DNA of 10,436 nt from Candidatus Hermodarchaeota archaeon (GTDB lineage Archaea; Asgardarchaeota; Hermodarchaeia; Hermodarchaeales; Hermodarchaeaceae): positions 1-10,436 of the forward strand of contig JAEOSA010000055.1 in NCBI GenBank assembly GCA_016840595.1, in the 5' to 3' direction. Shown piece by piece: positions 530-8,277 of this stretch. Below the pieces are notes generated by a model. It worked only from the letters and a program-made list of their open reading frames with translations. It was not told the origin of the DNA and did not search any database. A program made the translations under genes and the position numbers. How positions within the stretch are numbered: position 1 is the stretch's first letter; every line of letters begins with the position of its first letter.

Positions 530-1837
530 ATGTCATCCAAAGATAAGAAAAAAGAAAAAGAAAAGGCATCGAAGGCAACCAAATCGAAAAAGGACAAGAA
601 AGAGAAAGACGACACTCCTGAAGGACAAGCACGACAAATTCTTCGTGATTCCAGTAAAATGGCCCAAGATCTTAATGAAGAAGATCAGCAGTTGGCTAAA
701 GCCGATATTTGTTCTGCTCACGCGTCAATGGAATTATGTGATGAAGCGTTGGCCTTAGCCAAGGGTGTGAATCCCGGTAATCCCCGCTGGCGAGCACTCA
801 CAATTGTCGGTAAAGCCTTAGGACGATGTCAAACACACAAGGAAGCTAGCGAACTGGCTTTGAGCTTAAAAGATGAAGAAGATCGCGATTATGTTTTAGA
901 TGGAATCGCTAGATCACTTGCCGCCTTGGAAAAGGTTGATGACGCATTAGAAGTCGTTGAGAAAATAGAAAGCAAAACTCGCCGCTTACAATCCCAAGCC
1001 GCAGTTGCTGAAGCCCTTGCAATCAAAGGACAAATTACAGCAGCAGTTCAAGTAGCTGAGAAACTTGGAGATACGGAAAAAGCAGGTCGAGTACTAAGTA
1101 GTGCCATCGTCACCTTGGCAAAAAACAATCGCATTTCTGATTCACTAAACCTGCTTGATAATATTGAAGATGAAGGGTGGGTACCAGAAGCATTGGGCGA
1201 AGTGTGTGCTTCCCTAGTTCGAATGCGTGAACTCCCCAAAGCACTCGAACTGTTCGGCACAGTAAATAACGAAGACCATCAAACCGTTATCCTAGCTCCT
1301 CTTGTTGGCGCTCTCGTTGAAGATGGAAAAGAATCCATGGCATTAGCGCTAATCGGAAACATCGATAATCGATATGCCCGGGCAATATTAATCTCCAAAA
1401 TTGTTGGTGAACTGGTCGAAGCCCAGGAAATCAAGAAAGCGATACAAGTCACAGAACGAATGGATGACGATATTCCACCAGACGCCCTAATCGAAGTAGC
1501 TCGCGGCTTGGCAGAATTAGGCGAGATGAAACAAGCTATCCAGATTGCGATGCGCTTGGAAATCAAAGGATCACGAATTGCTGCCCTTACTGAAATTGCC
1601 CATGTTCTTACCAGAGCTGAACGGTATCAGGACGCCCTTGACGTCACACGTGAATTAGAACGGAAGAAAGCCCGGAGTGTTGAACAATTAAGAATCGTCA
1701 AAGCGATGGCTGAAAACGGACACCCCGACGATGCCCTCACCATTTCCAAAGAAATCGAAACCTCCCTCTATCAGATATACGGGTTAAACCGGGTGGCGGT
1801 GGCTATCACCGGACATGTTTTCGAAGAATACGTTTAA
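530..1837 (+). CDS. TPR-like helical repeat protein with lysine-rich N-terminal tail
   Basis: The 435-residue product has no signal peptide or membrane segment and is probably cytoplasmic. Residues 3-28 are almost entirely K, E, D, S and A, a disordered charged tail. From about residue 55 to the end it consists of about eleven helical-hairpin repeats of 31-34 residues with an R/P-x-x-A-L-x-x-I-A-x-x-L-A pattern in helix A and a D-A-L-x-x-x-x-x-I pattern in helix B. Repeat starts fall near 55, 86, 119, 152, 186, 218, 251, 284, 317, 349, 382 and 415. The last unit has only its first helix, so it probably acts as the cap. Regular tetratricopeptide or pentatricopeptide units are 34-35 residues; these are slightly shorter and lack the full TPR W/Y-G-Y signature, hence 'TPR-like'. 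Such solenoids bind other proteins, or RNA in the PPR case; the partner cannot be read from the sequence. The gene stands alone and converges on the MFS gene with a 3-base gap. Confidence 0.85.
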   Translation: MSSKDKKKEKEKASKATKSKKDKKEKDDTPEGQARQILRDSSKMAQDLNEEDQQLAKADICSAHASMELCDEALALAKGVNPGNPRWRALTIVGKALGRCQTHKEASELALSLKDEEDRDYVLDGIARSLAALEKVDDALEVVEKIESKTRRLQSQAAVAEALAIKGQITAAVQVAEKLGDTEKAGRVLSSAIVTLAKNNRISDSLNLLDNIEDEGWVPEALGEVCASLVRMRELPKALELFGTVNNEDHQTVILAPLVGALVEDGKESMALALIGNIDNRYARAILISKIVGELVEAQEIKKAIQVTERMDDDIPPDALIEVARGLAELGEMKQAIQIAMRLEIKGSRIAALTEIAHVLTRAERYQDALDVTRELERKKARSVEQLRIVKAMAENGHPDDALTISKEIETSLYQIYGLNRVAVAITGHVFEEYV

Positions 1838-5560: not shown

Positions 5561-6109
5561 TTACGCTGGTTTGAGAATATCCACAACCATGTCCTGTAAA
5601 GCTCGCTCAAATTGTGGATCAGGATCCATCCCCATCTCTAAATAGGGAATCCCCAAATGCTTCGCCAATTGTTTGGCTTCACGCTTCGTTACTCGACGGC
5701 GTTCCCGCGTTTCACGTCGTGTCCCCACTAAAATCGCAGGGACCTCTCCGATAACCCGGCGAACTTCATCCACCCAATCGAGAATACTATCAAATGATGC
5801 CCGATCGGTCAAGCTGAACACATAGACAACACCTGCGCCACCGCGGTAAAACTGACGACGTAAATTCGTGAATTTCGGTGAATCCGTGACATTCCAAATC
5901 TGCAGTTGCACACGTACAGGATCTAATTCAAATCGTTTTGCACCAAAGGAACTTCCAAGCTTGCGCTGGAAGCCATCAATATAGACGCCATCGGCAACGC
6001 CGCACATAATGTCAGTTTTTCCTGCCCCTTCATCTCCGACGAACAAGATTTTCATAGCCCACTTGACATTCGATTGATCCGGTGTTGCACTCATTTGTGG
6101 CCAATCCAT
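5561..6109 (-). CDS. Rab/Ras-like small GTPase with degenerate G2-G5 motifs
   Basis: The 182-residue protein aligns without gaps to Rab-type GTPases through the P-loop, switch I, the following LQIW strand and the R-x-x-F-Y-R-G helix. The P-loop is intact, G25-D-E-G-A-G-K31-T32. The other nucleotide motifs are altered. The switch I Thr is replaced by K50 (in K-L-G-S-S-F, where Rabs have T-I-G-x-x-F). G3 DTAGQ reads N73-V-T-D76-S77, so the Mg-binding Asp is Asn, the Gly is Asp and the catalytic Gln is Ser. G4 NKxD reads T130-R-R-E133. G5 SAK reads G160-M-D. It should therefore bind GTP poorly or use another ligand, and hydrolysis by the usual route is unlikely. The fold-defining parts (W72, F80, Y88-R-G, helix 104-120, L127-V-G) are kept, which suggests selection on the structure. 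There is no C-terminal cysteine for a lipid anchor. An 18-residue tail precedes strand 1. GGAGGG (6119-6124), 8 bases upstream, supports the first ATG over the one at codon 6. Confidence 0.9.
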   Translation of the reverse strand: MDWPQMSATPDQSNVKWAMKILFVGDEGAGKTDIMCGVADGVYIDGFQRKLGSSFGAKRFELDPVRVQLQIWNVTDSPKFTNLRRQFYRGGAGVVYVFSLTDRASFDSILDWVDEVRRVIGEVPAILVGTRRETRERRRVTKREAKQLAKHLGIPYLEMGMDPDPQFERALQDMVVDILKPA

Positions 6110-6366: not shown

Positions 6367-8277
6367 ATGACAACGGCAATGGCGTTATCACAACGAAACC
6401 GTCTTCTTCTCTTCACAGTCCTAATCATCGGCTTGCTAATCTGTACCAGCATATTGTTCACAAATAAACCCAATACAGTACTAGCAGAATGGTCTTATCC
6501 TGATGGGTATGATCCCCATGGCGGGTACCTTGACCGCGTAACGTTCGTAGTTTACTCCCCCGAAGATGAACAGCTGGGACTCCAAGCACTCCAAGCGAAC
6601 ATTATCTATGCGTGGGATGAACAATTCCCAGCTGACAACCTCGTCGAGTTCCAGGCGACAGCTGGTGTGGAAGTGACCACTGAGCCTGGTGACTTCTACA
6701 GGCTTTTCAATTTAAACTGCGACCGCTTTCCCACAAACATCACAGGATACCGACGAGCCATAGCATACGCTCTGGACAAAGCTGCAGTTGTGCAAGCCTC
6801 CACCGGAGGTTTAGCTTTTCTACAAGACTGTGCCATTCCAATTGCTCTGGGCAACTGGACCTATGAAGGTGAGTTAATCGAAACTTACTATTCGAAAAAC
6901 ATCATCGCTGCTAATGCCTCTTTAGACGCTGCTGGATTCCGGGACTTAGATGGAAATGGCTGGCGGGACTATGACGCTGATAATAGCACCACGTTAAGTC
7001 CTGGAGATGTTCTCGATGAGGATTTTATAATTGATTTGTATCATACCGCAGGCCATGCACCCTCAGGGAATGCCGTGGAAATTGCCTGTCAGGGCCTAAA
7101 TCAATGTGGGATTATGGCTGAGGTGGCTCCCCAGGATTTCTACATAATGTATGACATGATTACCGATTACGATTATTGGTTGTCGTGCTTCAGTTTTACA
7201 AACATGGTTTCTGCTGATTTGTTATATGATCTATTTCACAGCTCCACCAGGAATAATCAATGGTACTTCGGAAGCTGGAGTAATGCTACCTATGATGCAG
7301 CGGCAGAAGCATTGATGAGGGCGTCAACAGAATCTGAGGCGAACGAGTGGGCGTGGAAATGCCAAGAGATACTCTGGTATGAACAGCCGATGATTGTCTG
7401 TTATAATGACATCTACACCCGTGCCTACCGTACCGACATCTGGGAAGGCTACATCAATATGCGAGGTCGAAACCGGATCACTAATGGCTACAGCTTAGTC
7501 CACATCAAGCTCAAGGAAGAGGCGGGAGGACCCTTCGGGTGCTATCCAACCGAATACATCATGAGTTTAAATGAAGGACTAGATACAACCAACTGGCTGA
7601 TGAGCAACTCCAAGCACACTAGTAAAGTATTCCAACTCGTGTACGAAGAATTAACAACAATTTCCCCCTACGACTGGACACACCAGCCTTCCCTAGCATA
7701 TGCATGGGAAACACACGCTACTAATGCATCAGGAGATATTCAAGAAGGAGAGAAGTACACTTTCCACCTCTATGAGAATGCCACCTGGCATGATGGAAAA
7801 CCACTCACCGCAACAGATGTGGCCTTCAGTTTAACACTGGCATTACAAGATCCCTACAACGCGCAGAACTACCAAAACGTCTACAAAACCAATATCATTG
7901 ATTCCCATACAATCGAAATTTACACGAACACAACCGGTTACCTCGAATGGACACGAGCAACTGGATTCACAGTTTATCCGACCCACATTTGGTCTACTCA
8001 TCCAAATATTACAATGTGGCAACCAAGCGTTGAAGAGCTGGTCGGTTCAGGACCCTATGTGTGTAGTGCCCATGTTCCCAGACAATATGTTGTATTAGAG
8101 CGTCATCATGCGTGGCATTTCGCTGTTCCGCAACCGCCACGTACTTCTTGCTGGTATCCACCCCCTCCTCCGCCGCCCCCTTTAGGAATTTTTGTGTATG
8201 TTATCATAATTGAGATTTGTATTTTAGTATATTTTCTTAATCGACGCAAAAAGAAATCCCCCAAGGTTGAATGGTAA
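6367..8277 (+). CDS. Surface-anchored family 5 solute-binding protein, halves in permuted order
   Basis: The 636-residue protein resembles SBP_bac_5 proteins (DppA/OppA type), which capture peptides or other solutes outside the cell for an ABC importer. A signal peptide covers about 1-40 (R10-N-R, hydrophobic 13-32, V-L-A40). Residues 50-370 match the normal C-terminal half: G-Y-L-D-R-V-x-F at 53-60, R129-R-A-I-A-Y-A-L-D-K at 129-138, a D-x-D-G-N-G-W-R-D loop at 193-201, and a late helix ending in E339-Q-P. Residues 392-586 match the normal N-terminal half: V-Y-E-E-L, L443-A-Y-A-W-E, Y464-T-F-H-L, W474-H-D-G-K-P-L-T-A-T-D-V at 474-485, and V559-G-S-G-P-Y at 559-564. The break falls at the 'N-x-x-Y-W' joint of ordinary family members. 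Eight prolines (598-605) lead to a membrane helix (about 606-625) and R-R-K-K-K, giving an outside-facing anchor. Nine N-glycosylation sequons (for example N124, N163, N453, N547) fit an exterior location. No permease or ATPase genes are beside it. GGAG touches the ATG, so a start at codon 5 (6379) is possible. Confidence 0.88.
   Translation: MTTAMALSQRNRLLLFTVLIIGLLICTSILFTNKPNTVLAEWSYPDGYDPHGGYLDRVTFVVYSPEDEQLGLQALQANIIYAWDEQFPADNLVEFQATAGVEVTTEPGDFYRLFNLNCDRFPTNITGYRRAIAYALDKAAVVQASTGGLAFLQDCAIPIALGNWTYEGELIETYYSKNIIAANASLDAAGFRDLDGNGWRDYDADNSTTLSPGDVLDEDFIIDLYHTAGHAPSGNAVEIACQGLNQCGIMAEVAPQDFYIMYDMITDYDYWLSCFSFTNMVSADLLYDLFHSSTRNNQWYFGSWSNATYDAAAEALMRASTESEANEWAWKCQEILWYEQPMIVCYNDIYTRAYRTDIWEGYINMRGRNRITNGYSLVHIKLKEEAGGPFGCYPTEYIMSLNEGLDTTNWLMSNSKHTSKVFQLVYEELTTISPYDWTHQPSLAYAWETHATNASGDIQEGEKYTFHLYENATWHDGKPLTATDVAFSLTLALQDPYNAQNYQNVYKTNIIDSHTIEIYTNTTGYLEWTRATGFTVYPTHIWSTHPNITMWQPSVEELVGSGPYVCSAHVPRQYVVLERHHAWHFAVPQPPRTSCWYPPPPPPPPLGIFVYVIIIEICILVYFLNRRKKKSPKVEW

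Follow-up and report, generated by a model that had tools for sequence, protein, structure and literature searches.

Circularly permuted family 5 solute-binding proteins in Asgard archaea, with evidence for repeated rotation at two loops

The open reading frame (ORF) at positions 6367 to 8277 of a 10,436-nucleotide stretch from Candidatus Hermodarchaeota archaeon (contig JAEOSA010000055.1; this whole stretch is called the window below) raises the question of how a solute-binding protein (SBP) of family 5 comes to carry the two parts of its domain in reversed order, and whether such a rearrangement happened once or repeatedly. According to our analysis, the gene very probably encodes the substrate receptor of an Opp/Dpp-type ATP-binding cassette (ABC) importer, with a single two-lobed domain that has been circularly permuted in nature, about 30 residues now connecting the old termini.

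A reversed, near-complete domain

The whole protein matches PF00496 (SBP_bac_5; profile length, 368; curated cut-off, 32.4 bits) with 142.1 bits in two stretches, and this is the only Pfam family that it matches at E values up to 1. Each half, when scanned alone, lies above the curated cut-off: within residues 1 to 390, residues 48 to 294 correspond to profile positions 140 to 365 (E 3.1e-18), and within residues 391 to 636, residues 441 to 583 correspond to positions 4 to 141 (E 1.7e-22). The order of the blocks is reversed, as the original prediction, made from the sequence of the window, had claimed, and the coordinates that it gave for the two parts (50 to 370 and 392 to 586) are correct to within a few residues. 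It had also held that little is missing; the two halves jointly span profile positions 4 to 365, so that almost no part of the domain is absent. By sequence score, the protein belongs to PF00496, although it does not have the ordinary N-to-C order of that family, and since profile positions 140 to 365 stand ahead of positions 4 to 141, we file it as a permuted variant and not as an ordinary member.

A profile of our own (can.hmm; 537 columns), built from 15 proteins of ordinary order, places residues 51 to 365 on columns 223 to 516 and residues 396 to 583 on columns 39 to 220. Furthermore, a single solved chain, TM1223 of Thermotoga (4pft_A), matches both halves with the order swapped: residues 116 to 361 correspond to chain positions 263 to 506, and residues 426 to 576 to positions 39 to 183. 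The chain of the window protein is opened near position 200 of Escherichia coli DppA, and its N-terminal signal or anchor helix and its C-terminal membrane helix flank the termini thus created. We refer to this cut as T1 and to a second cut, near DppA position 343, as T2.

AlphaFold2 yields one confident single-chain fold for the window protein (predicted local distance difference test [pLDDT], 92.7; predicted template modeling score, 0.83), in which the ten-residue blocks of the join reach pLDDT values of 94 to 96 and in which helices occupy the places where an N-terminal signal and a C-terminal anchor had been expected (Table 1). The weak point of this structural argument is that sequential aligners cover one block only; the structural matches obtained with VIA-align 2 span only model residues 40 to 385 (T1) and 204 to 603 (T2), and the other T1 block is placed by sequence, not by fold.

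Table 1. Parts of the permuted SBP gene, with positions in the window
Feature	Positions	Strand	Basis or remark
Family 5 solute-binding protein gene, circularly permuted (T1), 636 amino acids	6367..8277	+	ATG start; Pfam, AlphaFold2, own profile
N-terminal hydrophobic helix, residues 9-30	6391..6456	+	AlphaFold2 helix; signal peptide or uncleaved anchor, as suggested by hydropathy and position
Block B, residues 51-365; second half of ordinary family 5 proteins, here N-terminal	6517..7461	+	
D-L-D-G-N-G-W-R-D-Y-D loop, residues 193-203, within block B	6943..6975	+	At or near the T2 cut loop
Join, residues 366-395, old C-terminus to old N-terminus	7462..7551	+	Gap between profile blocks
Block A, residues 396-583; first half of ordinary family 5 proteins, here C-terminal	7552..8115	+	PF00496, own profile, TM1223
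Proline-rich stalk, residues 584-605	8116..8181	+	Sequence; pLDDT drops to 72-82 over residues 591-610
C-terminal membrane anchor helix, residues 606-630, then basic tail	8182..8256	+	AlphaFold2 helix; sequence

Homologues with the same order, which the original prediction had suggested looking for, are numerous: 97 of the 120 listed homologues (151 were found) are T1, including P0002, which is 100% identical and is the window's own protein, while 1 is T2 and 22 are ordinary. The listed T1 homologues reach down to about 24% identity, and the source names in the set comprise Hermodarchaeota, Thorarchaeota, Hodarchaeota, Heimdallarchaeota, and Promethearchaeota. Where the sources name these proteins, it is mostly as "ABC transporter substrate-binding protein," so the rotation seems to have been overlooked in annotation, and residue numbers carried over from DppA-type proteins would be wrong.

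This conservation also bears on whether the gene arose by chance fusion of the remnants of two neighboring genes or domains, as a nonfunctional fragment or an assembly error. SBP genes often stand in tandem rows (five T1 ORFs follow one another in one locus described below), which would supply raw material for such fusions. Nevertheless, the T1 order is shared by most of the listed homologues, there is one precise cut point and a confident single-chain model, and for T2 as many as ten ORFs lie on a single contig of 3.3 Mb. Because the order is conserved, we regard chance fusion as refuted and give it almost no weight; profile order, model, and large conserved family bear out the earlier view of a finished gene.

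Two cut points and their recurrence

The second cut point and the recurrence of both lay beyond what the single sequence behind the original prediction could reveal. Two loci were found in genome contigs, both from Candidatus Hermodarchaeum yapensis, whose PF00496 matches comprise five T1, two T2, and one ordinary protein, together with two short pieces (frames of 123 and 97 amino acids) that were left unclassified. Our survey covered 59 genomes from the phylum of genome G001, taken as Asgard archaea; 42 of them have a PF00496 match, and 100 regions, a chosen and not a random sample, were selected from the listed matches. Our own profile matches 140 ORFs, 123 of them distinct (that of the window and 122 from the sampled genomes), which divide into 43 ordinary, 38 T1 (window included), 35 T2, and 7 partial proteins. 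These come from 37 genomes, of which 20 encode a permuted protein, 2 encode both kinds, and 26 encode an ordinary one. One genome carries five consecutive T1 binding-protein genes (L021, 4346 to 17205), with no permease detected within 4.5 kb.

The two cuts fall at consistent places. For T1, the median chain starts at column 223 of our profile and ends at column 220, with a join of 31 residues; for T2, the corresponding medians are columns 379 and 359 and 21.5 residues. In nine T2 proteins drawn from the main T2 clade and from scattered lineages, the first column is 367 to 377, and in P0096 it is 379, the last column being 356 to 370 in all ten. The T2 chains that we inspected (e.g., L105, L080, and P0096) terminate just past a D-x-D-x-D-G-type loop. 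In the window protein, D193, G198, W199, and D203 of the loop at residues 193 to 203 are nearly invariant (alignment A1), and L105 and L080 stop just past the motif that, by eye, is its equivalent.

Conservation of the T1 order extends across Asgard archaea into Bathyarchaeota. A search with P0099 returned 108 further proteins (59 T1, 38 ordinary, 10 partial, and 1 other), in which P0158 of Nitrososphaerota and P0214 of Bathyarchaeota look permuted (both T1), and Bathyarchaeota P0174 and P0203 are partial by profile and T1 by eye; several rows carry a dockerin domain (PF00404). In a quick tree whose details are weakly supported, the sampled T1 rows of this set adjoin the Asgard T1 rows, and T1 may therefore be older than Asgard archaea or have been transferred.

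Trees were built from un-rotated sequences. In a tree of 148 rows, T1 requires 3 changes, of which starred branches force 2, and T2 requires 8, of which they force 6; in a careful tree of 118 rows the counts are 3 for T1, 7 for T2, and 9 for the ordinary order, all forced by starred branches. Histories holding each permuted order as a single clade are rejected by the approximately unbiased (AU) test, both for T2 (913 log units worse, p 2.6e-9) and for T1 (79 log units worse, p 0.0028); the groups follow block order and were put to the test once the tree was known. When three segments (A, B1, and B2) were treed separately, T1 needed 3, 3, and 3 changes and T2 needed 7, 6, and 8, about the same counts, so the T2 result was not created by joining the blocks. 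With the ordinary-order protein P0116 as root, T2 occurs at six separate positions of the tree, one being a clade of 24 that encloses two ordinary rows and the others L054/L052, L088, L080, L105/L115, and P0096. The two ordinary rows, L104 and L110, are nested in the T2 clade with support of 100/100, and some of the order changes may accordingly be reversions, the counts leaving their direction unsettled.

Close relatives that differ in order allow the rotation to be followed piece by piece. The first pair, L097 and L105, is near-orthologous, with transporter operons that match between the two genomes. In L097 (G029), an ordinary-order gene with its signal peptide first and its C-terminal membrane helix last is followed by genes for DppB and a DppC of 517 amino acids, while in L105 (G021) a T2 protein is followed by DppB, a DppC of 543 amino acids, and two OppD-type ATPases. 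Residues 240 to 544 of L105 correspond to residues 1 to 312 of the L097 frame (57% identity) and residues 41 to 222 to residues 316 to 502 (58%); moreover, the last 33 residues of L105 match the ordinary anchor (64%), and its residues 214 to 237 align with the beginning of the mature chain in the ordinary protein (79%). These piecewise matches indicate that the domain rotated but the anchor kept its terminal position, and that the join contains neither signal nor anchor. In both B1 and B2, the best match of L105 is L097, whose segment A was excluded on account of a stop. This in-frame stop, near position 4379 of L097, lies between the signal peptide and the domain of a protein that is otherwise conserved, with sequencing error, decay, or recoding as candidate causes.

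A second pair comes from one genome, G032, where L082 (ordinary) and L088 (T2) are sisters with support of 100/99. Their two swapped pieces are 43% and 38% identical, and each gene stands in an SBP-DppB-DppC-OppD-OppD operon. We considered a chimera formed by gene conversion for this pair, and reciprocal best matches in all three segments speak against it.

Several points weigh against repeated rotation. Besides the chosen sample, the surveyed genomes carry no quality values; fewer changes are forced when only the starred branches in the trees of single segments are counted (1, 2, and 2 for T1; 3, 4, and 5 for T2); deep branches are long, and support is weak at several nodes (e.g., 72/12 and 82/30 near P0096, L114, and L116); the ordinary member of the L097/L105 pair is interrupted near its start; and T1 may have had a single origin with later losses. 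Much of this would suit an alternative in which each cut point arose once and the recurrence reflects tree error, long branches, or an artifact of un-rotating the sequences: the three T1 changes can be read as a gain followed by two losses, segment A by itself forces just one T1 change on starred branches, and the groups of the AU test were tested with the tree already known. On the other hand, it has to accommodate the large AU penalty for a single T2 clade, the similar counts from segments that were never joined, where starred branches still force at least 3 changes for T2, and the close pairs L097/L105 and L082/L088, which differ in order. We consider it unlikely. Taken together, the evidence supports more than one rotation of family 5 proteins in these archaea, with the cuts at two fixed loops and with the signal and the anchor kept outermost. 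We lean, by a modest measure, toward the fuller statement that in Asgard archaea and Bathyarchaeota there were roughly six or more independent rotations of the domain, each at one of the same two loops and some of them perhaps restoring the ordinary order, while signal and anchor remained outermost and the genes stayed within matching transporter operons.

Genomic context, function, and route

The family to which the window protein belongs and a close paralogue (L002, 5989 to 7872), which has DppB and DppC genes as neighbors and, farther on, one for an OppD-type ATPase, together suggest its role as an ABC receptor. Relatives in the PDB are named as binders of peptides, mannosides, chitooligosaccharides, and nickel. 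The window protein would bind its ligand by the ordinary Venus-flytrap closure and pass it to a permease. The tested window ORFs contain no permease by Pfam, and a shared permease encoded elsewhere is therefore assumed; the other tested ORFs match EamA, the major facilitator superfamily, a Ras-like GTPase, cupin, or a thiamine pyrophosphate (TPP) enzyme or have no clear Pfam match.

Together with this absence, the wider neighborhood speaks against the view that every permuted protein is a transport receptor. A permease gene lies within 4.5 kb of 29 of 43 ordinary genes versus 6 of 37 T1 and 7 of 35 T2 genes, some of these loci ending at contig ends; where at least 2.5 kb was available on both sides, the figures are 20 of 27, 6 of 23, and 7 of 23, respectively. 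Many permuted proteins may thus not directly serve a transporter. An alternative explanation, which we consider rather unlikely, is that the window protein is a stand-alone surface-bound capture or sensor protein and that rotation suits fusion to other surface domains. It would fit the lack of a permease gene in the window, the scarcity of permeases near T1 genes, and the relatives that carry subtilase, PKD-like, dockerin, or zinc-finger domains, but the paralogue in L002 and several other T1 and T2 genes stand directly beside DppB and DppC, and ordinary-order proteins are also oddly fused (to NosD and, in L023, TIR). An Opp/Dpp-type receptor remains our preferred reading of the window gene.

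Among the fusions themselves, a T1 domain is joined to a subtilase (PF00082) in L018 (876 to 8435, minus strand) and L019 (1184 to 8113, minus strand), in frames of 2520 and 2310 amino acids, the former with an additional borderline PKD-like match; one reading of these domain combinations is a peptide-capturing domain on a surface protease. Both fusions likewise count against the receptor reading. The T2 protein of L060 (2168 to 4615, plus strand; frame of 816 amino acids) has C-terminal zinc ribbon and RING-like matches (DZR and Prok-RING_1) that barely exceed the cut-off, and is possibly a receptor with a cytoplasmic tail. In L023 (6089 to 11728, plus strand) and L024 (6428 to 11368, plus strand), an ordinary-order domain is followed by NosD/beta-helix repeats, and L023 has a TIR domain near its C terminus.

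A plausible route to the permuted genes would start with the domain being duplicated in frame between the signal and the anchor, after which the outer parts would be lost; moving a single segment could have had the same effect. The rotated protein would be tolerated since its old ends are direct neighbors, and the benefit, if any, would be a different lobe by which the receptor is held. Both the route and the benefit are unproven, and our searches lend them no support. The original prediction had suggested descent from a tandem two-domain gene, and yet no protein with two SBP domains appeared: none of 243 proteins (ORFs of at least 200 amino acids in 117 loci plus the homologue set) was classed as "multi" or "other," and in a larger set of 382 proteins, which includes these and those of the P0099 search, three block-specific profiles (start of B1, end of B1, and start of B2) found no second copy; a fourth, built for the end of A, yielded a single split match, P0207, whose two parts belong to one copy. 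T1 rows never begin before column 206, and ORFs of 1349 to 2520 amino acids hold a single SBP domain. Two candidate intermediates were rejected: P0154, classed as "other" in the P0099 search, has no second copy by block-specific profiles, its overlap lying over the stalk region, and a 1280-amino-acid open frame (G021:C61) is in fact two adjacent genes parted by stops.

The idea that rotation changed the membrane tether to advantage, also part of the original prediction, did not survive a correction for phylogeny. In the fetched loci, simple hydropathy finds a C-terminal hydrophobic helix in 37 of 37 T1, 32 of 35 T2, and 16 of 43 ordinary proteins, whereas in 9 phylogenetically independent pairs the link vanishes (median p of 1; on average, the anchor changes in the same direction in 1.7 pairs and in the opposite one in 1.0, and 6.3 pairs show no difference), in a test that cannot reach 0.05 with fewer than six differing pairs. 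The association of anchor and rotation is therefore not demonstrable beyond shared descent. An insert in DppC was likewise rejected as a partner of rotation: the DppC proteins near T1 genes have stop-to-stop lengths of 395 to 545 amino acids (six of seven, 516 to 545), but long ones also stand beside ordinary genes (517 in L097 and 710 in L116), so the insert does not track order. The DppC of L002 (1293 to 2810, minus strand; 505 amino acids) has about 260 residues between OppC_N (19 to 55) and BPD_transp_1 (316 to 504), with no Pfam match in them at E 0.01.

Elsewhere in the window, 5561 to 6109 (minus strand) encodes a Ras-like small GTPase (PF00071, E 1.3e-29), of a kind typical of Asgard genomes, and 530 to 1837 (plus strand) encodes a protein of 435 amino acids with weak TPR-type matches, of which only ANAPC3 (PF12895) is just over its cut-off. 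A TPP enzyme gene also lies downstream of the SBP gene in L001.

Comparison with known systems

With DppA, OppA, AppA, NikA, and TM1223 (PF00496), the proteins described here share the sequence family over the whole domain, a matching predicted fold for the alignable block, and, in relatives, DppB, DppC, and OppD neighbors. They differ from these receptors in their reversed blocks, in ends that lie near DppA position 200 (T1) or 343 (T2), and in a C-terminal membrane helix.

Natural circular permutations are usually described as single ancient events. Here, instead, close relatives exist in both orders, one pair in matching operons, and two cut loops are reused, which makes testable the duplication-and-loss model, the rules for permissible cut sites, and the membrane-tethering idea. 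If the repeated rotation is true, evolution in these cells readily rearranges the parts of a complex two-lobed domain, and selection may act on which lobe is anchored. These proteins offer a natural experiment on how much the order of a chain can change with its fold kept.

By sequence, the window protein is not MglB-like (type I/cluster B), PF00496 being its sole Pfam match, and family 5 belongs to a cluster other than B. The closest precedent among those compared is of that other kind: TpMglB-2 (Tp0684) of Treponema pallidum is a cluster B receptor that is circularly permuted in nature and binds glucose, for which its authors propose the designation "Type Ic/Cluster Bc" and raise membrane tethering as a possible cause (PMC4990184). 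The two cases are alike in being natural circular permutants of ABC receptors; TpMglB-2 folds and binds its ligand, and it is a bacterial type I/cluster B sugar binder with one permuted topology whose moved part is, by its authors' account, poorly conserved in sequence (PMC4990184). In the present case, the family is archaeal family 5, both parts are clearly homologous, and there are two cut points with evidence for several origins. That the two-lobed fold tolerates new ends is also indicated by engineered permuted lobes of the ribose-binding protein, which are laboratory-made constructs of one lobe each and not evolved ones (PMC9815098). In the open-licence literature, with subscription papers outside the scope of the search, no paper describing permuted receptors of family 5 came to light. 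The kind of rearrangement is known, while the family, the archaeal spread, the two cut points, and the recurrence appear to be new.
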